From Dentipellis sp. KUC8613 (Eukaryota; Basidiomycota; Agaricomycetes; Russulales; Hericiaceae): a DNA stretch of 64,000 nucleotides. Under the pieces are notes generated by a model. The model did no database searches, was not told the origin of the DNA, and was given only the letters and a program-made list of their open reading frames with translations. Positions 3,903 to 64,000 of the stretch are shown piece after piece; positions within the stretch are counted from its first letter, which is position 1, and every line of letters starts with the position of its first letter. The position numbers and the translations under genes were made by a program. Where the stretch lies: NCBI GenBank assembly GCA_002286715.1, contig NSJX01000009.1, positions 63,966 to 127,965 on the forward strand. The letters run 5' to 3'.

Positions 3903-6266
3903 TTAATCCTTCTTCTCCTCCTTCTTCTCCTCAGTGCTCTCCGAGGACGCTGCGTTCTCCGCGTTGCGCTTCTCGTAGACCTTCTGGAAGAGGCCGAGCG
4001 ACGCCTGCTGCGCCTCGTTGATCTTCTCGCGGATCTGGTCAGCGGTGACGGAGTCATCACCAGCCTGGCCCTTGGCAGAGAGCTCGCGGAGCTCAGCGAG
4101 GTGCTTCGAGACCTTGTCCTTCTCGCTAGCATCGAGCTGGTCCTTGAACTCGTTCATGGCTAGAGAACATCGAAGGTTAATTACTACGGATGATGACAGA
4201 GCGCAAACAGCGACTTACCCTTCTCGGTATCGGCGCAGACAGACTCAGCCTTGTTCGCCTCCTCAATGAGCTCACGGCGGGCCTTGTCGGACTCAGCGAA
4301 CTGCTCAGCGTCGGAAACCATGCGCTCAATGTCCTTGTCGCTAAGGCCAGACGAGGACGCGATGGTCATGGACTGGTCCTTGTTGGTGGCCTTGTCCTTG
4401 GCGTTGACGTGGACGATACCATCTAAACCGAAGGATGAGTCACGTAGCGAGAAACCCAGGGCGAAGACGTACCAGCATCGATGTCGAAGGTGATCTCGAT
4501 CTGGGGAACACCCTTGGGCGCGGGGGGGATACCGACAAGGTTGAAGTTGCCGAGGAGCTTGTTGTCGCGGACGAGCTCACGCTCACCCTGGTAGATCTTG
4601 ACCTCAATCGCGGTCTGGCCGTCAGCGGCGGTGGAGAAGACCTGCGACTTCTTGGTGGGGATCGTGGTGTTGCGGGAGATGAGCTTGGTCATGATACCAC
4701 CGAGGGTCTCAATACCGAGGGAAAGGGGAGTGACATCGAGGAGGAGGATGTCGGTGACGTTGCCAGCGAGGACACCGCCCTGGATCGAGGCACCGATGGC
4801 GACGGCCTCATCGGGGTTGACACCCTTCGAGGGCTCGCGGCCGAAGATGGTCTTGACGGTCTCGACGACACGGGGCATACGGGTCATACCACCGACGAGG
4901 ATGACCTCGTTGATATCAGACGCCTTGACACCGGCGTCAGCAAGCGCCTTCTTGCAGGGGTCGACGGTGCGCTGGATGAGGGGACCGGTCAAGCTCTCGA
5001 ACTGCGAACGGTTGAGCTTCGTGTTGATGTGCTTGGGGCCGGAAGCGTCCGCGGTGATGAAAGGAAGGTTGATCTCGGTCTGCGACGTCGACGAGAGCTC
5101 GATCTTGGCCTTCTCGGCCGCCTCACGGATACGCTGGATAGCCATGCGGTCGCCGCTGAGGTCGATGCCGGACTCCTTCTTGAACTCGCCAAGGATGTGG
5201 TTGAGGAGAACAATATCGAAGTCCTCACCACCGAGATGCGTGTCACCGTTGGTGGACTTCACTTCAAAGACACCCTTCTGCATCTCCAGGATGGAGATAT
5301 CGAAGGTTCCACCACCGAGATCGTAGACGGCAATGACGGAGTTGTCGTTGCGGTCAAGGCCGTAAGCGAGGGCAGCAGCGGTGGGCTCGTTGATGACACG
5401 AAGGACCTCCAGGCCAGCGATCTGACCGGCGTCCTTCGTCGCCTGACGCTGGGCATCGTTGAAGTAGGCAGGGACGGTGATGACGGCGTGGCTGGAGACG
5501 AGGTCAGACACCGCGCAGAAGGACCCCTTCGGAAACACTTACTTGACTTTCTTGTTCAAGAACTGCTCAGCAGTCTCCCGCATCTTCCCGAGAACCATTG
5601 ATGACAGCTCCTCGGCCGACTACAGAAACGGCTTAGTGTCGCGTAACTCTGAGAACACACGAAAGCCACGTACAAAAGTCTGCTCCTTGTTGTTGAACTC
5701 GACTTGAACAGCAGGTCGGCCATCAGGCTTCTTCACGATCTTGAAAGGCCTGGCGAAGGAATGAGACGGTGGAGACCGGAAGAAGACGGATGACGTACCA
5801 GTGCTTCGTGTCCTCCTTGACCTCCTTGTCCTCGAAACTACGACCAATCAACCGCTTGAAAGCGAAGACTGTGTTCTGGGGGTTGACAACCGCCTGACGC
5901 TTGGCCGGAAGACCGACCAGGCGCTCTCCGTGCTTGGTGAATGCAACCACGGACGGCGTCGTCCTTGCACCCTCCGCGTTCTCAATCACACGCGACGTCT
6001 TGCCCTCCATGACGGAGACGCACGAGTTCGTCGTACCCAAGTCAATACCGACGACGGGGCCTAGACGTGGCAGAACATGAGTATACGAGTAACAGCACAT
6101 AGGAGCTGTATGGGACGTACCGGAGACTTTCGAGTTCATGTTCCTGGCGATCATCGACCTCGGGAGGCCCTGTGCATTCGTTAGCATACCTAAAACATTG
6201 CCAACAACAACGACGAAAACATACAGCATATCTGCCAGTGCGCATAAGACGAGTAGCGGCGAGCAT
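3903..6266 (-). CDS. SSC1: Mitochondrial Hsp70 chaperone (Ssc1 type)
   Basis: Matrix Hsp70 that pulls precursors through the TIM23 channel and folds them, ATP-driven. Seven or more exons: 6225-6266 and 6121-6169 give an Arg-rich presequence ([14 protein letters not shown], then [11 protein letters not shown]), exon 3 from 6060 starts the ATPase domain with [20 protein letters not shown]. Further motifs: [67 protein letters not shown], then the linker [19 protein letters not shown] and substrate-binding domain. The C-terminus is a helical lid ending in a Lys/Glu-rich tail. Introns have GTACGT/GTAAGT donors. The gene is divergent from the kinase gene at 6534, and the shared 267 bp carries a heat-shock element. 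Family membership is certain; the DnaK-like, EEVD-free tail plus presequence support the mitochondrial call. Confidence 0.96.
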
Positions 6267-24582: not shown

Positions 24583-25943
24583 ATGCGGTATACACTCACA
24601 TTCGATGCCTTCTTAGTAGCTGCTTGTCTTGGACTTTCGGCCCCTGCGTCAGTTTGGGGCATTCCGTTTTCTCGTGGCCATGAGCTTCCCGCAACTCATA
24701 TTGACTCAAGGGAGGCTTCGCACCACTCTGCGTCAGTTATCCCTGAATTTCATTCTTATAAACAAGGATATTGAAGTTATGCATGATTCTAGAAATGTAT
24801 CCCCACAAGTGGCTTCTCCTTTCACGCTCCCTCTGACACCCATAGATGACGATCTTGATATGGGCTATACCGCCTTGGTGAAGGTCGGCACGAATCCCAC
24901 TCCATACACCGTGCTCATGGACTGCGGGTCATCCGAGTTTTGGCTCGTTAGCGAGACATGCCCACAGCGTGTAAGCCCTCAGATCGGATTCAGTTTCCCA
25001 TCGACTTCTCGGTTATTTACGTTTCATTCGCAGGGTCGCCGTGTTCCCATCGGCTTTTCGACTTCGCAGACTTTCCAATCTTTAGGCGATAAATGGAAGG
25101 CCAGATATGCAGATGGTGCTGTTGTGACTGGTTCTTTCGCTACGGATGATGTCGCTATCGACGGCCGGATTCTTTCTGAACTCCCGTTTGGAACCGGCAA
25201 CACGTTGAAAGGTACTCTGACCACCGACACTTATGATGGGATCATGGGATTCGGTTTCACTGTAAGCTTGTATACTATACTTCATCCGTGAGGGGCTCTG
25301 AATATCCATATCTTGCGAACAGGAATCCTCGAAAACTGGTGCACCGACCATTCTAGATGCTCTTGCAACCACAAAGAAAATACCCCGTGCCATATCCGGC
25401 TGGAAATTGTCGCGCAACGCTGACGGTCGAAATGACGGCGAAATCATGTTCGGCGGGGAGAATGATGCCGTATTCTTCCAGGACAAACAAGTGGTCGTGC
25501 AGAACCTCTCCGGCGAATCGAACAAAAACTGGAAGTTCAACATCGACGGGATTTCCATGGATGGGTTCCAGATCATCCCGGCGCGCGTCGGCATCGTCGA
25601 CACTGGCACCAGCGTGCTGTACGTGCACCCCCGCGATGCACTCGCAGTAAACAATGAGATTCCGGGGGTCGTGGAGCTGAGGGACGGCACGTATGCGATT
25701 CCGTGTGTTTCCCAGTCGAAGCTATCGATCACCATCAACGGTCGCCAATTCGACATTGATCCGCGCGACATCGTTGCGAATCCCGTTTCAACTAAGGCAA
25801 CTACTGACATCTGCTATTCCAATATCGTTCCGGACCCGATGAGGCAGCCAGGGGAGTGGCTCATAGGAATCCCGTTCTTGAAGAATGTATACCTTACTCT
25901 CGATGTCACTGGCAACCAAATAGGATTCGCGAAGTTGCGTTAG
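24583..25943 (+). CDS. Secreted pepsin-type aspartic protease (A1), atypical DCGSS motif
   Basis: Extracellular or vacuolar endopeptidase. The start at 24583 gives a signal peptide (FDAFLVAACLGLSAPASVWG). The catalytic region follows in exons joined by introns at about 24970-25033 and 25262-25322. First active-site motif is TVLMDCGSSEFWLVS (24905-24950), with Cys in place of the usual Thr of DTGSS; the flap region follows with WKARYADGAVVTGSFATDDV. The second motif IVDTGTSVLYVHP (from about 25595) is normal, and the end is GIPFLKNVYLTLDVTGNQIG. Both catalytic Asp are present. The join between the leader and the propeptide (24640-24850) is unclear because the frame changes and several splice choices are weak; a 5' defect cannot be excluded. 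A diverged repeat lies on both sides. Confidence 0.82.
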
Positions 25944-38136: not shown

Positions 38137-39340
38137 GTGGTATTCCTCGCACTTCTTCTGACCAGTCTCGTTGTGGCGGCATCGGCCCAGACCATCACCG
38201 GCAGTTCCGACTGTGCTCCTGCTGGCGGCTTCACGCTCTGTTAGAACACCTACGCAGCGAGTACGCTTTTCTGCATTATTTCCGACTTTTATGGTGCTGA
38301 CACGGAGATGTCAGGCGATGCAAATGGTCACCAGAGCAGCACTGTCCATCCCGTTACATACGATGCCGTGTCCTGGACGACCAACTTCACCTGGAGCGAT
38401 TCGCCCACTGTTGCCAAGAGTCATTCTACTTGTCGTACCACGGAAAATCTTTAAAATAATTTAAGTGACCGCTATCCAGTTCCGAACGTCGAGCTCGTTG
38501 CGGTGAAGGGCAGGACGGTAAGGGTCTAACAAGATGGCCTAGGCTACGCTCTGCCCACTCAACTTCCTCCTGTTTTGCAGTTGGAGAATTTTCAAGTTGC
38601 TCTCACCCAGTGAAACTGGACTCGGTCCGATCTATCGGCAGACGCACGGGCTGATGTTTCGTATGCGGTACACTGTCGGACGTCTAGCATTCTACAGAGA
38701 TGAATTTTTGGGTTTGCAGGTATCACTTCTGGCTTGGCTCCAGTGCCACTGGGGCGCCGGCATCGTCAACTACGTCGCACGAAGTGTGAGTTCTTGTGCC
38801 ACCGCTATTTGTTTGGCTCTCGCTAACGCACAGGGCATGGATGCAGAATCATCAACGTCGGTAATGTCGGAGGGTAGGTCTCATTCCAATCTGAAGTCCA
38901 TCTTCAACACTGAACGTGCGGGATATTTCAGTGCCAAGCCTTCTGGGTCACTGGTGGCCAACGGTTGGTCCTTCTTCGGCAACTTCTGGGACGTCTATAA
39001 AGGTGCCGGCTCGAACTGGGACACCTTCACATTCACACCCAGCGATGGCAAGGCATTCTCCGGTAGTGTCGGAGATATGTATGGCTTTTTCAGTGCGTAC
39101 CAATTTGATCACGGATTTGGATGGAATATATTACTCAATGGTGTTTACTGCAGCGTACTTGACCAACGAGCACGACATCTCACGCACTTCGGTATGTCTC
39201 TTCGGATTCGATTTCAAGTCACGTATGCAGTCCGGCTGATAACCGCCATTTATAGTGCATCCAAGCTGCCCAAGGCGGCGTTGAAGTTTTCGTCGGGTCT
39301 GGAAGCCTTTCTTCCGTCTTCTTCCTCAATATGTATGAGG
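38137..39340 (+). pseudogene. GH12 endoglucanase pseudogene
   Basis: Paralogue of the intact GH12 gene 0.7 kb downstream, aligned exon by exon. The leader VFLALLLTSLVVAASAQTI is intact, but the position of the start codon reads GTG (38137). In the same frame the LCQN of the live copy is LC-stop-N, a TAG at 38242-38244. Later exons are still recognisable: TYDAVSWTTNFTWSDSPTVA, RADVSYAVH, FWLGSSATGAPASSTTSHEV (with the nucleophile Glu), a frame-disrupted WLSGLGG exon, FFGNFWDVYKGAGSNWDTFT, AYLTNEHDISRTS and AAQGGVEVFVGSGSL. A further TGA interrupts the fourth exon (ALTQ-stop-NW) near 38612, and the last exon lacks the terminal stop. Intron positions match the live gene. Confidence 0.8.
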
Positions 39341-39943
39341 AGTCTGTACCTTCTCTCGAATGCCGTCACAATGTCGAAATCTTCGTCCATTTGAATGCTG
39401 GCGGCGATTCTGAAGTAGCTTCGACAGGCACCCCCGTCGCAAAGATTGAGTTGCCCGTCAAACGCGCAATCCTGCATCGCTCGGGCGTCGAACGTCTGAA
39501 CCTTCTCGGCACTATTAGGTGCATATTCGCCACAATCCCCCGACGATCATGCGCCTCCCTGCTCACGCTGCCCCGACGGCATCACTAGGACCATGCACAA
39601 GGCTTCGCGAAGGATCGCACCAGCGGCCCGTGACCAAGTCCGGCACCAGCCGAGGGCGCGCCCTAATTTCCTCCCGACCTTTCTTTGGACATTCGTCGGC
39701 GTGAGTCTGAGGCGCCGTTGTTCGAAGATGTCACTCTCCATTTCTCCCTCCGCGCGAGCGAACGAACGGGGTAATACCCGGCATCCCGTGCTTAAAGGAT
39801 ATATCTTGAGAAGCTCGCGGTACCATCGTGACCGCCTTCTCACGTTGACCTTCCGACCCACGTTGTGTTCTTTCGTCGTTACTCCACCGCAACGCGGAGA
39901 ACGGTGCACCTGATTTTTCCGAAGAATCGTATGGTCGCGTCGA
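39341..39943. other. Intergenic region between the GH12 copies
   Basis: Separates dead and live GH12 copies. No gene recognised. Confidence 0.4.
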
Positions 39944-44525: not shown

Positions 44526-44533
44526 GTATAAAT
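44526..44533 (+). promoter_or_regulatory. TATA box, repeat-peptide gene 1
   Basis: TATAAATA, followed by a 5'-UTR intron (GTGAGT at about 44620 to GATTAG at 44674) that ends exactly at the ATG at 44675. Confidence 0.5.
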
Positions 44534-44674
44534 ACAATCATCCTTGCAGCAAGAACATGCACAAGCGTAGGGACACACCTTGCGGTTTCCCATCCACAGG
44601 TATAAACTCACAGTGCCAGTGAGTGTTACTGACTTGACCTCATCGAACGTCTATTCACTAACATCTCTGATTAG

Positions 44675-44980
44675 ATGCTCGCTCAGCTGCTTACCATCGT
44701 GACACTTCTTGTCACTGTGCCTCTGGGCACCGCGGCTCCTCTAGAAGCTCGCCACCAAACCTTCGACGCTCGCCACCAGACTTTCGCTGCGCGCCACCAG
44801 ACATTTTCCCCTTCGCATCAAACATTCAACGCTCGCCACCAGACGTTTGACACCCGTCATCAAACATTCGCTCCTTTGCACCAGACTTTCGACGTTCGCC
44901 ACCAGACGGTCAGCCCGGACGCCGTGATTCCCCTTCATCAGACCGTCAGCCCTGATGCTGCGGTCCCTACTCCCTTCTAA
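44675..44980 (+). CDS. Secreted HQTF-repeat precursor (cluster gene 1)
   Basis: Unknown family. 101 residues, single coding exon. Signal peptide MLAQLLTIVTLLVTVPLGTA is followed by APLEAR and then a run of 7-residue repeats HQTF-x-[A/T/P/V]-[R/S/L]: seven HQTF units (linkers DAR, AAR, SPS, NAR, DTR, APL, DVR) and two HQTV units spaced by SPDAVIPL, ending SPDAAVPTPF. No Cys. Most units are preceded by a single Arg (ARHQTF), a possible processing point. The array is 21 bp per unit at DNA level. It is the first of four tandem relatives that share leader, promoter and 5'-UTR intron. It could be a multi-copy peptide precursor or a repeat cell-surface protein; no enzyme nearby decides this. Confidence 0.72.
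   Translation: MLAQLLTIVTLLVTVPLGTAAPLEARHQTFDARHQTFAARHQTFSPSHQTFNARHQTFDTRHQTFAPLHQTFDVRHQTVSPDAVIPLHQTVSPDAAVPTPF
44759..44950 (+). repeat. 21-bp tandem repeat encoding HQTF heptads
   Basis: In-frame array in cluster gene 1, seven diverged 21-bp units then two longer units. Synonymous differences between units show age and constraint at protein level. Confidence 0.8.
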
Positions 44981-46268
44981 GAAGCCTTGAACATCGCGTA
45001 CGTCGCTCTCTCACTTCTTTGCCGTCCGAGCCATTAATCCAAATCACGTATGCATAGATCATCGTGCTCCAATGACAGCGGCTCATGTGTCTCAAGACGG
45101 GGCTTTACGCGTCTGTAGACGGCTTCTGGGGGGTGGCGAGACGGCATCTGAATTGTCTCTACGAAGTTCAATCAAACAAGTGGAAATGTACTTATAGTTT
45201 TAGGAGATATTGTTGTCAAATAGGATAAGATGTGAGATTTATTCCTCGGGCATCCAAAGGAAATACTCAACGTATCATCATGCTGTCGAAGTGCGGAAGA
45301 ACTCCAACGCTTTCATATATGTCTACAAGCCATGCCATACCCAAGTACGAGAATTGGATGGCAGACACGCGTGTTTCGTTTGCCACGCCGAATCAACAAC
45401 AATCAGATCGTCAATCATCGCAGCACATGTCGGTGTCTGATATCTTTGATGGGCGCGTGTGCTTCACCCGCCCTGAGAGAAAAAGATGAATCCTGTACAG
45501 TAGAGTTTTGTAGACCCTGAATAGCATCAGTAGATAAACGGGAGTATAGCGGGCGAGAACGTTACGGCAGCTGACTTGAGTACGGTGACTAAGGATAATA
45601 CCATGTAACTTCAGTTGACGAGAAGGATCCTGAAGTCGCCGATATAATCCGAACGTCTTAGCTGGAGCAAGGAATTCTGGAACTAGAAAAGCAAACACGG
45701 AGGCAGTCTATTCTTGAACTCCGTAACAGAAGGATGAGATCAGGTTCGCATCTCGAATGCACGCGGTCTTTAGCCCCAGATATCCGCTATGTTCCTGAGA
45801 GAATGAAACGTTAATAGATTCCCGCGGGATGATGACGAATGAATGAATGTACCATCTGCTTATCTCGAGTGAAGACGCAGGGTCTCGTCAAAGTGGATCT
45901 TTTCCGCCAGGGCGCTGTGAGGACATAAGTGGATTTACGGAGCTCAACATGGCGCTTGTTTATCCCGTGAAGCACAGCCACACCGCTCGTCGTTCCTACT
46001 CACATGGATAGACCCCATCAACACAGCGATGACATCTTCGTGACCGTCCGTGGCTCTCGCCATCCCGAGTCCCCGTAAGTGAGCACTGTGTATTCGGCAT
46101 ACGGATCTCATAAACTCACTATTCTTAGACCATGACGCAAGGCCCCCTGAACTACTGTGTATCGTCAGCACGCGGTGCATGCCTGCATCTCCTTCCATGC
46201 CCGGCCTCCTTCAGACCTTCCCCTGAAGTGATGTCCTGAGTGGATGACACAGGGTAAACATCGAGGAG
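44981..46268. other. Intergenic region inside the repeat-peptide cluster
   Basis: Spacer between cluster genes 1 and 2. Short open frames only; no recognisable gene. Confidence 0.4.
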
Positions 46269-46276
46269 TATAAATA
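46269..46276 (+). promoter_or_regulatory. TATA box, repeat-peptide gene 2
   Basis: TATAAATA, followed by a 5'-UTR intron (GTAAGT at about 46350 to GCCGCAG at 46401) two bases before the ATG. Confidence 0.5.
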
Positions 46277-46403
46277 GGGCCGGGTATGAACGAAGTCGAC
46301 GTACCAAGAAGCCTCGAGCGTCTGGTGTATCAAAGAACTTGAACTCAGTAAGTTGCCATTGCGTCGTTTCATTGAGTTAAAGCTTACTTTCTGAGCCGCA
46401 GAG

Positions 46404-47042
46404 ATGTTCACCCGACTTCTCGCAATTGTTTCTCTCATCGCGATCCTCCCATTGGCGAGCACTGCACCCGCTATGGGTGCACGTAAGGCCATCCCGAGGC
46501 GAGCGGCCATCGCGACGGTAGACGACCTCCCTACGCCTGCGTATGTAACGCTTGTCGCAGATGATCTCTCTGCTCGTCATCAAACTGTCGAGGACCCGCC
46601 TTTTGCCCGGCACCAGACGGTTGAAGACCCTCCGTTTGCCAGGCACCAAACAGTAGAAGACCCGCCCTTCGCTCGTCATCAGACCGTCGAAGACCCTCCG
46701 CTGGCACGCCACCAGACCGTCGAGGACCCTCCCAGGCTCGCTCGCCACCAGACAGTCGAAGACCCTCCCATCGCTAGGCACCAGACGGTGGAGAACCCTC
46801 CCTTCGCTCGTCACCAGACCGTCGAGGATCCACCCCTCGCCCGTCACCAGACGGTTGTCGACCCTCCGCGGGCCCGCCACCAAACCGTCGAGAACCCGCC
46901 CCTCGCTCGTCACCAGACGATCGTTGATCCTCCCCAGGCTCGTCATCAGACGGTCGAGGACCCGCCTCTTGCTCGCCACCAGACGATTGTCGATCCGCCC
47001 CGTGCCCGCGGAGCTGCCTTCCCGGAGGCGACTCCTGCCTGA
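46404..47042 (+). CDS. Secreted RHQT-repeat precursor with 13 copies (cluster gene 2)
   Basis: Unknown family. 212 residues, single coding exon. Signal peptide MFTRLLAIVSLIAILPLAS, then a propeptide-like region with a dibasic site (KAIPRR) and DDLPTPAYVTLVADDLS. The rest is 13 tandem copies of an 11-residue unit, consensus ARHQTVEDPPF, with variants VENPP, IVDPP and VVDPP and the last position F, L, I, R or Q. It ends in ARGAAFPEATPA. No Cys, no Lys inside the array. Each unit has a single Arg before HQT. The 33-bp units differ mostly at silent sites or at the hypervariable last residue. Shares leader and gene architecture with cluster genes 1, 3 and 4. Confidence 0.75.
   Translation: MFTRLLAIVSLIAILPLASTAPAMGARKAIPRRAAIATVDDLPTPAYVTLVADDLSARHQTVEDPPFARHQTVEDPPFARHQTVEDPPFARHQTVEDPPLARHQTVEDPPRLARHQTVEDPPIARHQTVENPPFARHQTVEDPPLARHQTVVDPPRARHQTVENPPLARHQTIVDPPQARHQTVEDPPLARHQTIVDPPRARGAAFPEATPA
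46572..47009 (+). repeat. 33-bp in-frame minisatellite, 13 units
   Basis: Tandem array encoding A-R-H-Q-T-[V/I]-[E/V]-[D/N]-P-P-x. One unit carries an extra codon (DPPRLARHQ). Copy number is likely polymorphic; this is inference. Confidence 0.85.
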
Positions 47043-48049
47043 TTACGAGTGCGTGCACCGGCTTACTTTTGTGTTTGCTCTGAGGCTGATTTTTGGCATG
47101 TCAGTTGTTTATCGGTGCATACTGTTTGTCGTAGGAAGATAGAGGGAATCGGTCATCAATGAAGGAGATAAGAATGTAACAAGTGCTGTATAGGATTTGG
47201 TGTCAACTAGAGTTGGAATTGTGACAAGCATGAGGTCTTACCGAAAGCATTTTAGTGCAAATTCTTGCAGGAGATAGCTAGCATGGGTGACCCCCGAGGC
47301 TTCGAACCGCCCACGGAGTGATGTGGACGATTGCATTTGTATGCATGGCCTGTTATTTTCATGCATACGGTCAGTGTGCGGAAGAAATTCGAAGACTGAC
47401 CTGCAACCTTGAATCAACATATACCTAGAGCTAAGGCGGGTCAATCACAGATTTTCGGTTCCATTTTCTGCAGAGTGCGAAGGGATTCTCGGAGACCGCC
47501 CATACGTGTATATCGCGATGCAGGCCGACTCACATCAAGTACGTAGACCCTGGCAGGTGCGCGTTGTCGCTAAGACTATAATCGTGGGAGTTCACTTCCG
47601 GTTTAAGGGAGTCATAATCGGCTTCGCGATCGAACTGCGAATTCGACCCGTCGCCCAACAGCGCGCACCCTTGAGGTTGATCTCCTCCTGACCATAGCAT
47701 TCTGTCTTTTCAATCTAGTGGACGCTGATAATATGCATGGCTCCGAAACGATGAAGATGATGGTCAGACCCTCATTCCCGCTCTGAATGTTCCGGACGAA
47801 GTCCACGTTCAGGGTATCTATGTACGTTGAATCCTTCTTAATCTTCCAAAACCCTTTGTCGCATCTCCATCTTCTGTGTATGCTCCTGTACACGGCGGCT
47901 GTCCTCGCGTCGCTTATCATCAGTGACCGCCCATCTAAGGTCATCAAGGGTCTCTTTCCCGAGCGCAAAGGGTCTCCTGTGATCTGTCGCCATCGCAAGG
48001 CTATCCGAATTCACGGTCAGAACACATGGCAACATTCTGGCTCGCAAGG
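47043..48049. other. Intergenic region inside the repeat-peptide cluster
   Basis: Spacer between cluster genes 2 and 3. Two opposite open frames around 47612-48050 have no recognisable content. Confidence 0.35.
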
Positions 48050-48057
48050 TATATAAA
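48050..48057 (+). promoter_or_regulatory. TATA box, repeat-peptide gene 3
   Basis: TATATAAA, followed by a 5'-UTR intron (GGTGAGCG near 48117 to TACAG at 48170) shortly before the ATG at 48187. Confidence 0.5.
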
Positions 48058-48186
48058 GGAGACTTCGTGCAGGTCAGACGGGCCAGGATACCCAGTGCTG
48101 ATCTCATTAGGACCAGGTGAGCGCCTCGACAATTGCTTCGTCCCCAGTTTACTCGCTAAATACGTACAGGTCTCGCAATAACAACC

Positions 48187-48456
48187 ATGCTCGCCCGTAT
48201 CTACGCCCTCGTGTCCTTGCTCGTCGTCTTGCCGTTCGCCAGCGCCCTTCCCGCCGAAGCCCGCTACAATGCTAGGCACCTTACCGGGCTTCCACCCGCA
48301 GCGATAGAAGAGCGGTATTACACGACGCTGCCAGCTACGTTTGGAGTCCGTGAACCCACTCCGGTTCGAGGCGGCCCGGGTAACATCGGCGGTCTCTGTG
48401 AGTACCACTTCCTATAACACTTCCTCTAAGTAACGACTAATTATTCCCTGGCAGAA
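48187..48456 (+). CDS. Secreted RHLT-type small precursor (cluster gene 3)
   Basis: 70 residues. Signal peptide MLARIYALVSLLVVLPFASA is close to those of the neighbours. The mature part has one RHLTGLPPAAIEER unit and a degenerate second (YYTTLPATFGVREP), then GGPGNIGGL. A 57-nt intron (48398-48454; GTGAGT donor, ACGACTAAT branch-like site) splits the stop codon: T before the intron, AA after it. Without splicing the frame would add six residues. The bases just before the ATG (CAATAACAACC) match those of gene 4 (CAATAGCAAAC). Confidence 0.68.
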
Positions 48457-48715
48457 TGGTTCATCTCGAAAGGTGTTAGACGTGCAAACACTGGCAGGGG
48501 AGTCGTTCTTGCGTAATCACTTGTAAACCTTGGCTGTGATGAGTTTAATGAGTGGCAAAACATAGGATTGCGCAGGTTTTATCGAATCGCCCGATGAGTC
48601 CACCCGTGCTTGACGGTGAGGGTATCTTCGAAGATATATGAGACAAACCACTTGATTTCCTTCGCCGTCGTGATGTTCATTGACCGACGTACTCGTAGTT
48701 CTTGCAATAGCAAAC

Positions 48716-49033
48716 ATGTTCTCCCGCCTCTGTGCTCTCGTATCCCTGCTCGTCATCTTGCCGCTTGCTAGCGCTCTTCCCGCAGAAGTCTGCCACGACG
48801 CCGGGCGACTCGAACAGCGGCACCTCACTGCACGTCGGCCTGCTATCAACGAGCGCCACCTCACCGCTTTTCCGCCCACAATTCATGAGCGACATCTCTC
48901 CGCACTGCCGCCTGCGAAGGGCAAGCGCCTCCCGACCGCGCTTTCTCCTGTTCCTGCTGGCGGCATCTGTGAGTCCTCCTTCCTGACAGCATTTTTCGGC
49001 CGATTATTGGTTCAAAGGCGTGACTTGTCAGAA
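48716..49033 (+). CDS. Secreted RHLT-repeat small precursor (cluster gene 4)
   Basis: 84 residues. Signal peptide MFSRLCALVSLLVILPLASA differs from gene 3 at few positions. The mature part has three 12-residue units, RHLTARRPAINE, RHLTAFPPTIHE and RHLSALPPAKGK, a degenerate fourth (RLPTALSP), and PVPAGGI. It holds dibasic RR and KR, possible Kex2-type sites. A 63-nt intron (48969-49031, GTGAGT donor) again lies between T and AA of the stop codon, exactly as in gene 3, so the two are recent duplicates. Only 260 bp separate them. Confidence 0.68.
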
Positions 49034-53842: not shown

Positions 53843-54036
53843 GACTGACGTTGGGGGTGTGCGCTGACGTGAGAATGTTTACGTCCGCGTTTTCGGGGAG
53901 GCGCGCGGGAGACGAGCGTCATCGCCCGCTGCAGCCCCGACTCTCAGCCCGACTCTTGCATGCCGCCCGCCTCCCGCCCCCGCCCTCCCCGCCCGACATA
54001 GACTAACAACGCCGCCCTCTTTTTGATACCGCCACC

Positions 54037-57000
54037 ATGCTCCGGACGGCGGCGACGACCTTCATGCCGCTTCCGGGTCTCCGCATCCCGCTCGGTGTCG
54101 CCCACGGCGTGCACCTGCGCCCCCTCTCGCGGGCCCTGCACACCTCCCCCATCATCGCACGGACTGCTCGCCAACATTCACCACTCCCTTTCTCGAAGCA
54201 TTTTACACCTTCCCTTTTCCTCCGCTTTGCGTCAACTACACCGACACCGACACCGGCACCAGCATCTTCGCCGACACCACCTCCCGCGCCAGCGCCAACA
54301 CCACCAGCGAAGGATCCATCACCACCATCGAAACCCGCAAAGTCGAAAACTGGCTCATTGTCTTCTCGCATCACTTCTCTCATCGTTGGTTCCAATGAAG
54401 ACAAAGCGTCCACGGCCTCGCTCCGCATGCTCGTGTCCCTTGCACGTGCCGAGCGCAAGCCCATTACTTTGGCTATGAGCCTGCTTCTCATCTCATCGGC
54501 GGTGTCTCTCTCTATTCCCTTCACGGTCGGTCGATTAATCGACTTCTTTACCTCGCCCAACCCGGTGCGTTTGCCGTGTCTTCCGCTTGAATAATGGTAT
54601 TCTGAATTGGTCAGCGAATAGCAAATCCCATACGGCCTCTCTCTCGCTTCGGCGTCTGCCATTCTGCTGCTCGTGTTTTCCATCGGTGGTGCAGCGAATG
54701 CCGGGCGCTCATACCTCATGCGCATGTCAGGTGCGTCCCAAGTTTATTTATTGCGGTAATAATATCTCAAGGCTCGTACAGGCGAGCGTATCATCGCTCG
54801 CCTGCGGGATCGGACCTTCAGCTCAGCATTGCGTCAGGAGATAGACTACATTGAGCGTAATCCTGGAGAAGGAGATGTACTCAGTCGGTTGAGCTCGGAT
54901 ACTGGAATTGTCGGTAACAGGTGCGGTCGGCTTTGCTTTTGTCATTTCAGATCGTGGTGTTTCTTGACAATCCGGCCTACGCGAGATGTGCCGCAAAGAA
55001 TGGATATACGCATAAGAGCGGACATCTCCCAACTTTGTCGCCGTGGTCGCGTTTTCACCGCTGACTTTCTGACTTGTGATGTAGCGTTACTCAAAACCTC
55101 TCCGACGGTCTTCGTGCGGTCGTCATGTCTTTCGCTGGTCGTACGTGACATTCTGCCTTTTAATACTGTATTCGCTCACCCAAAGGACTCAATCCCGTGC
55201 GCATATACTCACCCGTTTCTGGTATACGCTGTGGTGGCCGCCTTTATTAGTTGGCGCCATGTTTTACCTCAGCCCGCAACTCACGCTTCTCATGCTCTCT
55301 GTCGTTCCACCTATCTCACTTGGTGCTGTGAGTGCTTGCTTCTCTGTACATTCTGATGTCCCCATATTGACTTCGTTGGCACCCCTCGGCACGCATATAT
55401 TTACCTATATTGTGAACCGCGTATCATTGTCACACTTGGTATATGCGTCCATCTAGGTCATATACGGTCGCTACATCAAAAGGCTCTCCACGAGAACGCA
55501 AGAAGCTCTCGGTGAGATGACAAAGGTGCGCATATATCTTGATACCGCGCTTTCATTACTCTTGTCCTCATGTTCTATGCTAGGTGGCACAAGAGTCGTT
55601 GTCCGCGCTGCGCACCGTTCAGGCTTCGAATGCGCAAGCGAACCAAATGGCACTCTTCTCGACTCGCGTACGCGAGGTCATCGAGCTCTGCCGGAAGGAG
55701 GCCGTCGCTAGCGCGGTGTTTTTCGGCAGTACCGGATGGAGTGGCAATGTCGTTTTGTTGGCCCTTCTGGGGTACGGTAAGTGTGCTCATTCATTCCACC
55801 TCGTTATTTCCGCTTCGTCTAATTCCAACTTCGTTCCTCTGTCCAGGCGGCTCGCTCGTCAGCAGAGGCGTAATCTCCGTCGGCGACCTTACCAGCCTCC
55901 TGATGTACACCGTCTACGTCGGCAGCGGCCTCCAAATGCTCACGTTCGTCACCCCACTCTGCACGTCCTCCCCACACACTAATCTGTGCCTTCCCCACAC
56001 CACAGCGGGTTCTTCGTAAGCACCCCCTATCAGATCCAGATTCCCGCCGCCCTTTCCTGACGTGCCCGCAGAGCGGCCTCATGCGGGGCCTCGGCGCGTC
56101 CACGCGCCTCTTCTCGCTGCTCGAGCGCCAGCCCGCCATCCCGCCGGACATGGGCGTGCCCCTCGCGCCGACGCGGACCGGCCCCGTCCGGTTCGACCAC
56201 GTGCGCTTCTCGTACCCCAGCCGCGCGGGCGTGGGCATTTTGGATGGATTTGATCTGACGGTCGGCGTTGGGGAGAGTGTGGTCATTGTGTGAGTTGTTG
56301 TTTTGATTGCGAGATCGGCGTGTGGGCGCGGGTTTTGGATGGAGTGCTGATGCTCTGGTGGGCGTGTAGGGGAAAGAGTGGCAGTGGCAAGTCGTCGTTG
56401 CTGTCGCTACTTTTGAGGTATTATGATCCGGTTGAGGGGAAGGTGACGTTTGATGGTCAAGGTGTGTTCGGTTTTCAGCACTGTCTTGTCCGATGATTGA
56501 CTTGTGTTGTCAGACATTCGCGAATTCACTCCTGCGTCGTGGCGAAATGCTATCGGGATCGTACCCCAGGTGCGTTCCCCATTCTATCAGCGTGGCACGG
56601 AAGGACGCTGAGCATCTTGCGACTATAGGACCCAGTCCTCTTCACAGGAACGATTGCGTCGAACATTGCTGTAGGAAGCCCGAATGCAACACGCGAGGAG
56701 ATCGAGGCTGCTGCCAGGGAGGCGAACTGCGAATTCGTCTGGGGCCTGCCGAATGGATTCGATACCGAGAGTACGTCTCTAATCCTTTTTCCCGTTTATA
56801 TTCCTTCCTCCGTTTTATCTTCAGTCTCCTACCGCCTTCTTTGTCGCCTGCTTTCATGATTTAAATCGTGTGCTGACAATCAATGCAGTCGGCAGACTCA
56901 GCCTGAGCGGTGGCCAGCGCCAGCGCCTCGCAATCGCGCGTGCGCTCCTGAAGAAGCCGAAGATCTTGGCTATGGACGAGGCGACGAGCTCGTTGGACGC

Positions 57001-57592
57001 TGCGTCTGAACGCCGGGTGCGTCTGCCCTTTCCCCCTTCTGCTTGGTGGAGCAAAAGACGACTGACAGGTGGTGCTGCGTGCAGGTGAACGACGCGATTG
57101 ATAAGGTCCTCGAGTCGCGCGAGACGACGTGCATTTTCGTCGCGCATCGGCTGTCGACGATCGCTAGGGCGGAGAAGATCGTTGTTCTCGAAGGTACGTG
57201 TTATATTTCATCGTCTATTCCAGGCGCTAATGTCATCCTCAATTGTAGATGGTCGCGTAACCGAGACTGGGTCCTATAGAGAACTCGTACGTCTCCACTC
57301 CCCCGTCCCATAGTTTTTCAAAGTACTGACCCATGATGTGATGTAGCTCCACAAGAAAGACTCGCGCTTCCGCCTGCTCATGGCCGCCCAGCTCAGCGCG
57401 ATGGACGTCGACGGCGTGCCCGAGCACGTGAAAGAGTCCGAGTCTGCGGACGAGGATGACGACTTTGCCGACGAGGTCGAGATCAAGGCCGAGGACGCGG
57501 AGGCGGACAAGGGCAAGGGAGAGAAGCCCACGCCCGTCCCGGTCCCGGAGGCGAAGCCGAGCTCGGGCTCCTCGCCGCAGGCAACGCTGTAA
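54037..57592 (+). CDS. Mitochondrial ABC half-transporter, MDL1/ABCB10 type
   Basis: Homodimeric exporter of the mitochondrial inner membrane. The first 80 residues are an Arg/Ser-rich presequence ([20 protein letters not shown]) and a Pro/Thr linker. The membrane domain follows in many exons: [131 protein letters not shown]. Nucleotide-binding domain: Walker [22 protein letters not shown]-loop [14 protein letters not shown], signature [18 protein letters not shown], Walker [14 protein letters not shown], His switch [12 protein letters not shown]. It ends with a Glu/Asp/Pro-rich tail of about 60 residues. About fifteen introns. Peptide or heme-related transport is known for relatives; substrate here is open. 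Confidence 0.93.
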
Positions 57593-58338: not shown

Positions 58339-58793
58339 TTAGATCTCGGCGCGCTTGGACTGCCTGGGTCCGCCTGTAAGTTAAGGTAATGTATTGGTAG
58401 ACGAATCATGGAACAAGGAATTTTTGGAAAGGTCTTACAGGCTTCGCCAAAGCACTCGGGGTCCGGGAGACTGGGAGGGGGTAAGCTCGTTGGACAGGTT
58501 CGGGCAATAGAGGAAAGAACGTAGGCGCTTGAAGCCGATGCTTACATGGCCGGGGTCGGAGCAGGCTCCCTGTAACAAACGAAATTTAAAACTGAGTTGA
58601 ATGGCATGACACGGAAGTCACGTACTCAATCGCATCAGACAAAGGTCCACCTATATCACAGAAATACGTCAGTTATTACAAACACGACGCCATGAAGGAG
58701 GTAATACTGACAGCCAAGCCCGAAGCACTCGTCCGCAGGGGCGGCGAACACGACCGAAGCCGCGAAGAGAGTGATGAGAGCGAGGAACTTCAT
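58339..58793 (-). CDS. Secreted Cys miniprotein with two ECFG-x-x-CGP repeats
   Basis: Unknown family. Five exons (58712-58793, 58626-58650, 58546-58569, 58439-58470, 58339-58373) join in frame to 65 residues. Signal peptide MKFLALITLFAASVVFA is followed by APAD and ECFGLGCGP, a linker (LSDAIEEPAPTPAILPDP), then ECFGEACGP and QSKRAEI with a dibasic KR near the end. In both repeats an intron sits after the first base of the second Cys codon (T|GT and T|GC), so the repeat arose by duplication of an exon-intron unit. A TATAAAAG lies 77 bp upstream on the minus strand. Four Cys in two C-x4-C pairs suggest two small disulfide loops. The 75-nt third intron is the least certain join. Confidence 0.62.
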
Positions 58794-59579
58794 TGTCGTG
58801 ATAGGTAGTGCGTCGAGGGGGTAGAAACAAGTCGAGTTGTTGCTGCCCTTCCGCTCCTTGCACCGAGACCTTTTATATGCTCTCTGCTCGAGGCCATGCA
58901 CATGCAGCACATGGCCCCGACACCCGCTGCTCGACATGTTGCAAAATGAAATCCGGAGTACCCGGGCCCAGGGGCGGCCACCCTGCCCGGAGCTCTTATC
59001 TGCACCCTCAGTATGTACGTGAGGGCTGCATTGAAATCTTGGGCACTGTGTACGCTCGCGCGCTTGCTGAGCAGGCACGATCACCAGGCCGGGTTTGCGC
59101 TACGTGACATACGGAGACTCGGTGTGAACATGAGTGGTGGGGCTGTGGCGAACCGCGTGGGTGAGTGTAAGGGGTGAAAATGTGAGGGTTATCGATTATC
59201 GGGGATGGGGATAGTGAAGGGTCGAGTGCGTACCATGAATGTTGGTGCATGTACTTGCACGTCTGATCCTCAAGATAGCTGGAAAACGTCAGATGAGCGG
59301 GCCGAATCTGATACGTACGGCAAAGGAGGACAATCAAGCGGACAAGAGAAGTCAGGGAAAAGTCGAACGACACATCAATATGCAACGTTCCGGAGGCAGC
59401 GAAGCATGTACATGTGGCCGGAAGTGGATCTCAACGTTCCTAAGAACAGCTGTTAGATATACAAGACGCATACGCTAGGAGGGGGATTAATCTTCAAGAA
59501 GTAGAGTACACCAAAAATTAACCGCCGAACAAGAACGACGTAAGTAAGATACTCGTTTATAGCAACCGTCAGGTTTTGG
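58794..59579. other. Intergenic region upstream of the ECFG miniprotein gene
   Basis: Contains its TATA box (58870-58877). Remaining sequence holds the 3' side of the DUF7918 gene; nothing else seen. Confidence 0.4.
58870..58877 (-). promoter_or_regulatory. TATA box of the ECFG miniprotein gene
   Basis: TATAAAAG on the minus strand, 77 bp upstream of the start codon at 58793. Confidence 0.5.
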
Positions 59580-60865: not shown

Positions 60866-61535
60866 AAGCCTTTTCAGATCTAGCGATACGAGTTTGACGA
60901 TATTTGACTACAGTAAACGAGAGGTTCAAAGTTACGTGAAGGCTTGTTTCAACTTCAACTTCTTGGCCGCGACGGTCAGACCCCTGACGTCACGGTCGTG
61001 ACAGATATTGCATAATATTACGTAATTTGTCACACTGTCATACTCCTGCGTGACCGACGTTGAGACTCTCTGACTTCGGCCGCCGTCGTACTCTTGAAGC
61101 ATTTTGAATTACCTTCGACAGCGAAGATCCCCGTTTCTCCAGACGCTTCAGCTGCAAGGCAGCTCTGTTTCTTATCAGCGCATTGTACTGGCTACAATGT
61201 GGCAAAGCGTCTACTCAAGGCGGAAGGTGTGGAATCCGATCCCGACATGAGAAGTCTTCGTACAGTCAACCTGTCGCAACTTCACGCCTCAAAACCGCAG
61301 GTACGTCGTCATATGCGCAATTGGGAAGTTCGATGGATCCAAATTGTAAGCTTCTTTGCGCCTGATTCAAGGTGCTCGGATTCCGGAACTCATGCGGAAT
61401 GTTCACGAAGGGGGTTCAAGTCTGCTAGTTTTCAGAATGCTCAATCCTTATCTACCATCTCAATTTTGCGAAAAGCTCATCGAGAGCCTGATTCTGATCC
61501 TCCTCTACTCATCCTCGTGCCTAACCTGAGCCAAC
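60866..61535. other. Divergent promoter region
   Basis: Between the DUF7918 gene (minus) and the lectin-like gene (plus). A 161-codon plus frame from 61094 has no recognisable features. TGACGTCACGGTCGTGACA at about 60984 is a partial palindrome. Confidence 0.4.
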
Positions 61536-62988
61536 ATGGCCACCGTCACAGGCAGCACCATTGCAGTCGTCGCCAATAGACCTGGAGTGACCGTTTTCTA
61601 CCGTGTTGGAGACGTCATCCAAATCTACCGAAAGATTGTGGATGGACAATCTAGCTACGACCAAGAAAAGAGCCTGTCCACCCATTTTCTCAAAGGATCG
61701 GATTCGAATATTGCCGCCACGAGGGTTCGTTTCATCTTTCAAGCTGCATCTCAATTCACTGACATGCGAATTACTCGTGTGCTAGCGTTCTGCGGGGGTC
61801 GACGACAGACAGACTCGCGTATTCTACCAAGGCTCGGACGGGTTTCTGCGCGAATTGACCGTCTCTAGTGACGGCCATGCCAAAGATCAGGCCATCTCGG
61901 CTGTTAAGGATGCGCGCACCAAGACGTCGTTGGCCGCCATTGTCCAGAACGATCTCGACCGGCCCTCGTCTCAATCGACTAAGATGCCCGATGTTCTGTT
62001 CTATCAAGGAGCGGACGTGAGTGCTGCGATACTCGCTTACACATCACATGTCAATTCATTCCACGCAGAATCTTATATGTGCGTCTCCTCAAGGTTAGTT
62101 ACAATTCGCACTCACGATTTTTAGATTTCGTGAAGTCTGATAGACCTGGGTCTTGGTCGGATCCCATGCCAATTGCCGATGTTGCCGGGGAGAAAGGCAC
62201 GACGATCCAAGCTTTCCTTGGCAGTGGTGAGCGCTTCCCATCTTGAATCTTGAAAGCAGTCTAATTCTGAATATCTGCAGCGCCAAACTCTGACTGCATG
62301 GGTATCGTTTATGTATCATTCCTTCGCCCTGGATCGAACTACATATACCGATATTCGGCGACCGTGGACGAGATTTGCAAAAGCGATTCGCCTTTTTCTG
62401 CTGCTACTCCTGACCTTTACTTCAATGGCAAGAGCAGTAAAGGTCGTTTTGCTGCGATATGCGTACCTCGGATTTACTGTCGCTGCAAGAAGGATTTCCG
62501 TTTCTATTCCCAGTTCGCGGACGCCGGCGGCGTTATCTCAGAGGGCATTGGCCAGGACGGGATTGTAGCAACTCAATCTTTGAACGAGGGAAAGTTTGAA
62601 CAGGAAGCTCGGGACTACGGTGAGCTGCTGCTCTACTGCTTCTGAATTTCCACGATCGCTCACGTATTTCCACAGCACAGATGGGAGCTGTGTATCAACG
62701 AACAGACAAAGTCCATTACGGTACGTTCGCGGTAAATTCAGAAGCGAAATCAGAGCTAGATTTTCCTCGTTTCCAGCGATTACAGTCGTCTTCGAAGACG
62801 CTCCAAGGAGCATCTGCTCGGTCACGCTAGAGGGGTCATGGAACCCTGTGGTCATCATAGGCGACGACTCGGCTATGCAGTTTCGCGATGGGAAGTGGGA
62901 GGTCGTACACATTACCGATCAGGAGCAGGAACAGCTCAAGAGTCACGGGTATATGGAGGCATGGGACTCACCTGTCAGGCTCTGTTAA
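61536..62988 (+). CDS. Fucose-specific-lectin-like beta-propeller protein
   Basis: Resembles the six-bladed fucose lectins of fungi (AAL/AFL type) that bind L-fucose glycans. Start at 61536 (MATVTGSTIAVVANRPGVTV) with no signal peptide, as in known fungal lectins. Blade-like units each bear an aromatic strand: VFYRVGDVIQIYRKIVDG, VFYQGSDGFLRELTVSSDG, DVLFYQGADSYMCV, SYMCVSPQ-DF with SDRPGSWSDPMPIADVAG, YVSFLRPGSNYIYRYSATV, DFRFYSQFADAGGVI and AVYQRTDKVHYAITVVFED. The exons from 62310 on diverge from the classic pattern and the C-terminus has a separate Trp-rich part (LEGSWNPVVIIGDDSAMQF). Typical Arg/Glu/Trp fucose-site sets could not be matched in every blade, so binding ability is uncertain. 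About six introns. Confidence 0.7.
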
Positions 62989-64000
62989 GAGGACAACATG
63001 TAGGCGCTGACGCTCGACTGTCGTCGCAAAAGTCTCGCGTTATGCCAGCTTCAATCTACGGTATTGTTTTCATCATGCATGATCTCTCCCTCGGAGACGC
63101 CGTTAGTCCTCAGTAGCAACAATGATGTTCAACGGAATTTTCTCCCATAAAAGTTCGCGGATATTTTTAGAGACATGCACTGACTCATATTTTCTTCAGC
63201 AGGAATCAATGCCTGACCGTGTAAAATTGTCCTGTTGCGCATCGATCTGTTTCATCACGAGTAGACGCCACGTTGCACGCCTCACCCTATTCGGTTTCTA
63301 TCAGAGGAACTTGTGCGGGCACGCACGCGTACCATTCTGCAAGGTCCGCTCCGAGACGTATTCCAGCCCAGGCTTACGCTCATGATCTGAATCGCCTCGC
63401 TGCTACACCGGCTTTCGAGTTCTCCGGATGCATGCTTCAATTCTACGACATTCGCCGCTCGAATTCCGAAACTGCGCACCCTCTTCTGTGACTGGGACAC
63501 CTTGTACTTTCCTAATAGCGGAATTTCCCAAATACGCCCTGTTTTTATGGGCGGTGCAGGTCAACTCGTGTCTGTATCCTCGCAACTCGTTTCCTAGGTT
63601 GGGATTGGGGTGACAACGCACGATGGCGCAGCGTGTATAATGGAAGCAGTGGATGTATCGGCCGCAGTTTCTCATCCGCATATGCTCTCCGGCCATCTGC
63701 TTGCGCCTGACTCGAAGTACATGGAATTGTGACGTGGTGAATGTGCAAGACTAGCTGTTGATAGCTGAGACGCATCCCATAGTTCTCATTATGTAGGTCG
63801 GTAGCACACCGGTGGCAATTTTCATTTGCGGACGATCTTATAATCCTCGAGTGGTAAGGCTTACAAGTCTCCCGTCCTACCTCATGAAGCTGACCGCCTC
63901 TTATATTTATAGCTTGGTTAATTGCGTGTGTGGGTCCAAGGCACCGGTCTTGATGACCTCGGAATCGTGATCCGCATGCGTAGTTAACTGACAGCTTCAA
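62989..64000 (+). other. Right-edge region with a possible decayed F-box-like fragment
   Basis: From 63386 to 63600 a plus frame without Met is open and protein-like (ATTFAARIPKLRT-type segment, LFCDWDTLYFPNSG, ISQIRPVFMGGAGQ), recalling leucine-rich F-box relatives of basidiomycetes. After a TAG the same frame stays open to about 63731. No start, F-box or clean splice frame was found. The rest shows nothing. Confidence 0.25.

Follow-up and report, generated by a model that had tools for sequence, protein, structure and literature searches.

Four tandem genes for putative secreted multi-copy peptide precursors with single-arginine borders in Dentipellis sp. KUC8613

Our study concerns four small genes in a stretch of 64,000 nucleotides from the basidiomycete Dentipellis sp. 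KUC8613 (assembly GCA_002286715.1, contig NSJX01000009.1, positions 63,966 to 127,965 of the forward strand), which is referred to here as the window and whose numbering is used throughout. The genes, named g1 to g4, begin on the plus strand with ATG codons at 44675, 46404, 48187, and 48716, exactly as the initial annotation had placed them, and all four frames are open. The first, g1 (44675..44980, 101 residues), encodes a leader followed by nine HQT[F/V] units, and the second, g2 (46404..47042, 212 residues), a leader, a pro-region, and 13 ARHQT[V/I] units; both descriptions come from reading the open reading frame (ORF), counting units, and comparing the proportions of nonsynonymous and synonymous differences per site (pN and pS). 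The third, g3 (48187..48456, plus strand, exons 48187-48397 and 48455-48456, 70 residues), carries a leader, a single clear RHLT unit, and a second, decayed unit that reads ERYYTTLP, while g4 (48716..49033, plus strand, exons 48716-48968 and 49032-49033, 84 residues) carries a leader, three RHL[T/S] units, and the sequence KRLPTALSP. The earlier description of related leaders followed by repeats around HQT or HLT is borne out in g1 to g4, which form one tandem family.

In both g3 (48398-48454) and g4 (48969-49031), the stop codon is predicted to be interrupted, as T|AA, by a GT..AG intron at an equivalent position. A public protein model of 71 residues matches g3 and is identical to it over 70 residues; it ends in GGLC, with the Cys lying one residue past our predicted g3 end (splice at 48398-48399), and no acceptor that would give a Cys followed by a stop was found within 4 kb after the g3 donor. 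Pfam returned no convincing family for the four proteins (best E 0.048). The spacing of the units is regular: in g1, seven of the eight gaps measure 7 residues and the other 12, and in g2, eleven of the twelve measure 11 residues and the other 12. Arg precedes HQT in six of the nine g1 units, with S or L in the other three, and AR precedes HQT in all 13 units of g2. Three or more repeats, the number used as a criterion in the pipeline of Le Marquer, are present in g1 (nine), g2 (13), and g4 (three), and g3 has one clear unit.

Special attention was given to the constraint on the repeat cores. Among units, the pN/pS ratio of the four-residue HQTx core is 0.038 in g1 (nine units) and 0.040 in g2 (13 units), and that of the 10-codon ARHQTVEDPP unit of g2 is 0.085. 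H, Q, and T are invariant in the HQT cores, the codons for each of them vary within g1 and within g2, and the units have diverged at synonymous sites almost to saturation; the second codon positions of HQTx present no differences, and about half of the comparisons show one at the third position. Neutral simulations with an equal number of base changes gave means of 12.4 and 41.0 replacements, against the 2 and 7 seen, and none of the 2000 neutral runs for each of the two cores had replacements as few as those observed. Because replacements fall this far below the neutral simulation despite the synonymous change, it is the peptide and not the DNA that has been kept among the repeat units. The full 7-residue unit of g1 is looser (pN/pS 0.273), since its linker residues change, as does the Arg in three of the nine units.

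The leaders tie the four genes together. All of them have the n-h-c layout of a signal peptide, and the strongest hydrophobic stretch of each protein lies within residues 2-18, as judged from the sequence alone. Identity among pairs ranges from 10 to 16 of 22 residues, and all six pairs beat shuffled leaders (P <=1.5e-4; 20,000 shuffles with the n-, h-, and c-regions shuffled separately), so their likeness exceeds what a shared signal-peptide layout would give. They are less constrained than the cores (pN 0.13-0.36, pS 0.44-0.97), the changes between the g3 and g4 leaders being mostly synonymous per site (pS 0.44, pN 0.13). Protein searches against the organism's own genome (34.1 Mb in 171 contigs, four first-look candidates scored per search) gave a more uneven picture. 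With g4 as query, g3 was returned at E 7.5e-7, g2 at 0.125, and g1 at 0.27; with g1, g4 was returned at 0.09, g3 at 0.14, and a background match in contig C15 at 0.475, and g2 was not returned. The g2 query found itself and a weak match in contig C97 (E 0.10) and returned none of g1, g3, and g4, a result that speaks against easy homology. The non-self family matches of g1 and g4 all fall inside a 4.4-kb segment of this 34 Mb genome, and their E-values are weak (0.09-0.27) except between g3 and g4. Among the candidates scored, convincing relatives appear only at this locus, and for g1 and g2 the case for common descent with the others is made by leader, core, and position rather more than by E-values.

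The cores of the four genes contain 23 R|H junctions (six in g1, 13 in g2, one in g3, and three in g4) that can be considered candidate cut sites. In g1, all six Arg residues past residue 22 directly precede HQT and Lys is absent, a placement that would fit a processing site and, equally, a binding motif. An aliphatic residue or Pro occupies P4 in 16 of the 23 junctions (1/6 in g1, 12/13 in g2, 0/1 in g3, and 3/3 in g4), and an extended Kex2 motif with Arg at P1 and an aliphatic residue or Pro at P4 is described in PMC8528282. Products ending in a single Arg have been reported for Coprinopsis KEX2-processed repeat proteins (KEPs) expressed in Pichia (Vogt 2022, PMC9769878). At least one proprotein-convertase P domain is present in the assembly. 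None of the four proteins has the hydrophobic C-terminal tail needed by a glycosylphosphatidylinositol or membrane anchor, and a single Cys is found over all four mature parts.

On this basis we propose, with moderate confidence, that g1 to g4 encode secreted multi-copy peptide precursors, which Kex2 or an enzyme like it would cut after a single Arg. The leader would take the protein into the secretory pathway, where an Arg-specific protease, most simply the host Kex2-type convertase acting on its extended motif, would cut at R|H, and a carboxypeptidase may then trim the Arg. The predicted products are short linear peptides with an N-terminal His, of the HQTF type from g1, the HQTVEDPPxA type from g2, and the HLTxxPP type from g3 and g4. 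Within g1 and g2 the head HQT[V/F] is under selection, and in g3 and g4 HL[T/S] takes its place; since this head is kept, it is probably what a target recognises. The likeliest role would be that of an extracellular signal or of an interaction with other organisms, by analogy with roles proposed for other mushroom KEP peptides, and this is the weakest step of the proposal.

It is important to note that several observations weigh against cutting at these sites. None of the 23 junctions is dibasic, dibasic pairs being restricted to the g2 pro-region, the inside of one g4 unit, and the position before KR|LPTA of g4. Ala occupies P2 in 18 of the 23, and it does not figure among the next-best P2 residues that PMC8528282 lists; P4 is Phe in five of the six g1 sites. 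The three g1 units in which S or L replaces Arg keep the core where the cut site has been lost, and three additional Arg residues in the g2 units (DPPR) would be cut as well. Finally, no orthologue that could show conservation of the Arg between species was found in the protein set searched (described below).

The upstream regions of the genes add a further element. TATA boxes lie at 44527..44533 for g1 (148 nt before the ATG), 46269..46275 for g2 (135 nt), and 48050..48059 for g3 (135-137 nt), all on the plus strand. Predicted introns in the 5' untranslated region (5'UTR) follow on the same strand at 44619..44674 in g1 (GT donor and AG acceptor, directly abutting the ATG), 46348..46401 in g2 (GTAAGT donor, CAG acceptor), and 48117..48169 in g3 (GTGAGC donor, CAG acceptor), with donors 56, 56, and 70 nt before the respective ATG. 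The initial annotation had assigned a TATA box and a 5'UTR intron to three of the genes, and g1, g2, and g3 indeed present both at similar distances. With 29 plus-strand occurrences of TATAWA in the 64 kb, or about 0.09 per 200 nt, we estimate that a TATA box at a near-equal distance in three of four genes is unlikely to arise by chance. No TATAWA was found within 200 nt before the ATG of g4.

The DNA likeness between g3 and g4 begins where the 5'UTR intron of g3 ends, with its acceptor AG (48168 compared with 48697; leader blocks 78% alike over 100 nt). A second, weaker match in the 3' flank (48606 compared with 49135, 77% over 43 nt, E 6.5e-4) has the same offset of 529 bp. These two matches point to an apparent 529-bp tandem duplication whose first copy, at 48168..48696 on the plus strand, comprises the splice acceptor, g3, and its 3' flank, and a possible splice acceptor before g4 (48697..48698, plus strand) stands in register with that of g3. 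We infer that the duplicated unit runs from acceptor to acceptor, leaving the promoter and the first exon outside. Since g4 has no TATA box of its own, three states are conceivable for it: a second exon used alternatively by splicing from the first exon of g3, a gene with a weak promoter, or a copy that is silent.

The last of these options belongs to a wider alternative, compatible with every other reading, which we regard as a tentative possibility: g3 and g4 could be decaying or silent duplicates, with g1 and g2 alone at work. The single clear unit of g3 beside a decayed one, and the position of the TATA-less g4 directly behind the duplicated g3 flank, are consistent with it. However, both frames are open, the intron that splits the stop codon is predicted at an equal place in both genes, the leader changes between them are mostly synonymous, and g3 is matched by a public protein model.

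A clearly less probable alternative to the proposed precursors, also named in the initial annotation as repeat surface proteins, is that these are secreted repeat proteins which remain uncut, as an extended or beta-stacked chain in the wall or matrix, with RHQT or RHLT as a binding or modification motif. The lack of dibasic R|H sites agrees with this reading, as does the behaviour of g1, where the HQT core is present in nine of nine units and Arg in just six. An AlphaFold2 model of g2 built from the single sequence contains about one short strand per unit, in most units, at low confidence (mean pLDDT, the predicted local distance difference score, 58.5; predicted template modelling score 0.46), and it speaks neither for nor against a chain that stays uncut; alignment-free models of near-identical repeats are unreliable, which counts against leaning on it for this reading. 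On the other side stand the Arg found in 13 of 13 g2 units, the restriction of Arg in g1, past the leader, to positions directly before HQT, the absence of an anchor-like C-terminus, and the near absence of Cys, and the units of g3 and g4 are probably too few and too irregular for a regular solenoid.

That the genes encode precursors of a modified cyclic RiPP (ribosomally synthesized and post-translationally modified peptide) of the dikaritin (ustiloxin) type is very improbable and not supported: dikaritin precursors (ustiloxin, phomopsin, asperipin-2a, and victorin) likewise combine a leader with repeated cores (PMC9769878), and tailoring genes could in principle be unlinked in an assembly with at least 16 UstYa matches, but no UstYa (DUF3328) gene lies next to the precursors, the window has no UstYa match, the nearest one found in the assembly (C161:355417) stands some 242 kb away from g4, the Pfam scan of the window (114 of its 117 ORFs of at least 130 residues) found neither UstYa nor tyrosinase, the g1 and g2 units have no Tyr, the crosslinked residue in the dikaritin examples named in PMC7329392, and the cores lack dibasic borders. 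The remaining probability, beside cut precursors, uncut proteins, and RiPPs, goes to other fates. The initial annotation, which had also remarked on the absence of a UstYa-type gene beside the four, had compared them with both Kex2-processed and dikaritin precursors; the second comparison is not supported, and the first is weakened, as it requires cutting at a single Arg in view of the 0/23 dibasic junctions. As a separate observation, paired UstYa matches within a few kb of each other occur at G000:C161:355417-357436, C111:200700-202635, C126:125019-129164, C86:18902-21741, and C89:364426-369564, and these are candidates for RiPP clusters, or for clusters of another kind with UstYa, that have no relation to the g1-g4 locus.

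Among known systems, the secreted precursors proposed here come closest to the KEPs (Le Marquer 2019, PMC6339444; Umemura 2020, PMC7329392; Vogt 2022, PMC9769878), which are likewise short, with a secretion leader, tandem short cores, and a cut site between them. The scan of Le Marquer used KEX2 sites between repeats (KR or RR, less often KK; PMC6339444), whereas the borders in g1 to g4 are a single Arg; in addition, their cores start with His, and related precursors of differing core spacing stand in tandem. An orphan core alone would be ordinary, since the 7878 KEPs of Umemura comprise 838 types plus 2560 stand-alone ones that had no homologue (PMC7329392). Less ordinary are the consistent single-Arg borders, the H-core common to differently spaced precursors, and the apparent exon-level duplication. 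Our best reading is that g1 to g4 would work like KEPs and represent a monobasic variant of them, a name chosen because the KEP definition relies on dibasic sites.

Two other systems invite comparison. Ascomycete alpha-pheromone precursors and basidiomycete alpha-like KEPs share with the locus a leader, a pro-region (in g2), and repeated short linear cores, but g1 to g4 lack KR borders and the XA or XP dipeptides past the cut site that are targets of STE13, all 23 R|H junctions continuing as HQ or HL. The repellent Rep1 of Ustilago maydis, from which Kex2 releases several peptides, is also secreted and repetitive (PMC8528282). The g1-g4 cores are polar and Pro-rich, and amyloid-like fibrils look less likely for them because of this composition.

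Searches outside the genome were made in a set of 5.8 billion proteins. The g2 query, for which the 7997 candidates with the most shared words were scored, gave two proteins at E <=10. The better, a metagenome protein of 336 residues from a 3.9-kb contig (E 2.4e-4; 51% identical where aligned, over 33% of the query), opens with RHQTV- and ARHQTV-like repeats, which are followed by a methionine, possibly the true start of an unrelated protein; in our judgement the repeats are an upstream extension or chance, and this sole outside match to the core was set aside as a homologue. The second (E 2.6) looks unrelated. A profile search with g4, g3, and g1 returned one protein of 303 candidates, which was g3 itself. 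As a control, the GST (glutathione S-transferase) ORF of the window returned 652 proteins at E <=1e-20, with Heterobasidion, Auriscalpium, Stereum, and Trametes among the matches listed, so mushroom proteins are present in the set, although unannotated small genes would be missed. These searches, of the kind suggested by the initial annotation, gave no convincing homologue in a set with many mushroom proteins. In the open-licence literature, the strings HQTVEDPP, RHQTV, RHQTF, and ARHQT had no match, and RHLTG occurs in six papers unrelated by title; searches with core strings, KEP, and Dentipellis KUC8613, outside supplementary tables, found no described family with an HQT or HLT core, in agreement with the initial annotation.

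These results bear on how fungal peptide families are counted. The two KEP surveys and the Coprinopsis study describe their targets by KEX2 sites, which they name as dibasic (PMC6339444, PMC7329392, PMC9769878). If single-Arg arrays are matured, present counts of fungal peptide families are too low, which would justify surveying genomes again with the extended Kex2 motif. Of the four genes, the searches of the protein set brought up a record for g3 only, and ordinary annotation therefore seems to miss genes of this kind. If g3 and g4 are alternative second exons, one locus could switch peptide sets by splicing. The free N-terminal His of the predicted peptides could be a metal-binding or receptor-binding head. 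It is improbable, though conceivable, that all of this holds jointly, namely a precursor class with single-Arg borders that dibasic surveys could not list, many peptides with a free N-terminal His, and g3 and g4 as alternative second exons under one promoter. The locus offers a clean test case, with a strongly constrained core of three to four residues in two differently spaced precursors of a 34 Mb genome.

The surroundings were characterized by the Pfam scan already mentioned, which took 117 stop-to-stop ORFs of at least 130 residues as its input; the three left out overlap g2, which was itself scanned. At E <=0.001, matches were obtained to HSP70, APH, NAD-GH, MreB_Mbl, SUR7, Tubulin_3, peroxidase, and TgpA_N at 1-16 kb; to Asp, Foie-gras_1, DUF6699, GST domains, TAXi_N, and TRAPPC13_C at 16-33 kb; to Abhydrolase_3 and Say1_Mug180 at 33-45 kb; and to ABC_membrane at 47-63 kb, with a subthreshold GH12 match at 38546-39391 (E 0.0015). 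An aspartyl protease of secreted type (PF00026) is represented by two exons at 24623-25940, about 19 kb upstream of g1; it was considered as a yapsin-like processor and dismissed, as nothing links it to g1-g4. A multi-exon ABC transporter (ABC_membrane, with a visible signature) at 54007-57279 on the plus strand was set aside as an exporter of the g1-g4 products because its first exon resembles a mitochondrial presequence, and we take it to be probably an MDL1-like half transporter. At 58656-59099 on the minus strand there is another short signal-peptide-like start, MKFLALITLFAASVVFAAPADECFGLGCQ, which contains Cys and is unlike g1 to g4. Long overlapping ORFs on both strands occupy 4408-5601, in a part of the window to which both the HSP70 and the NAD-GH matches belong, the latter probably being the antisense of HSP70. 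Finally, frames at 61530-62990 contain repeated motifs such as VRFIFQAAS and TRVFYQGSDGFLRELT; the ORFs of at least 130 residues in this region have no Pfam match, and the motifs are reminiscent of a fungal bladed lectin.

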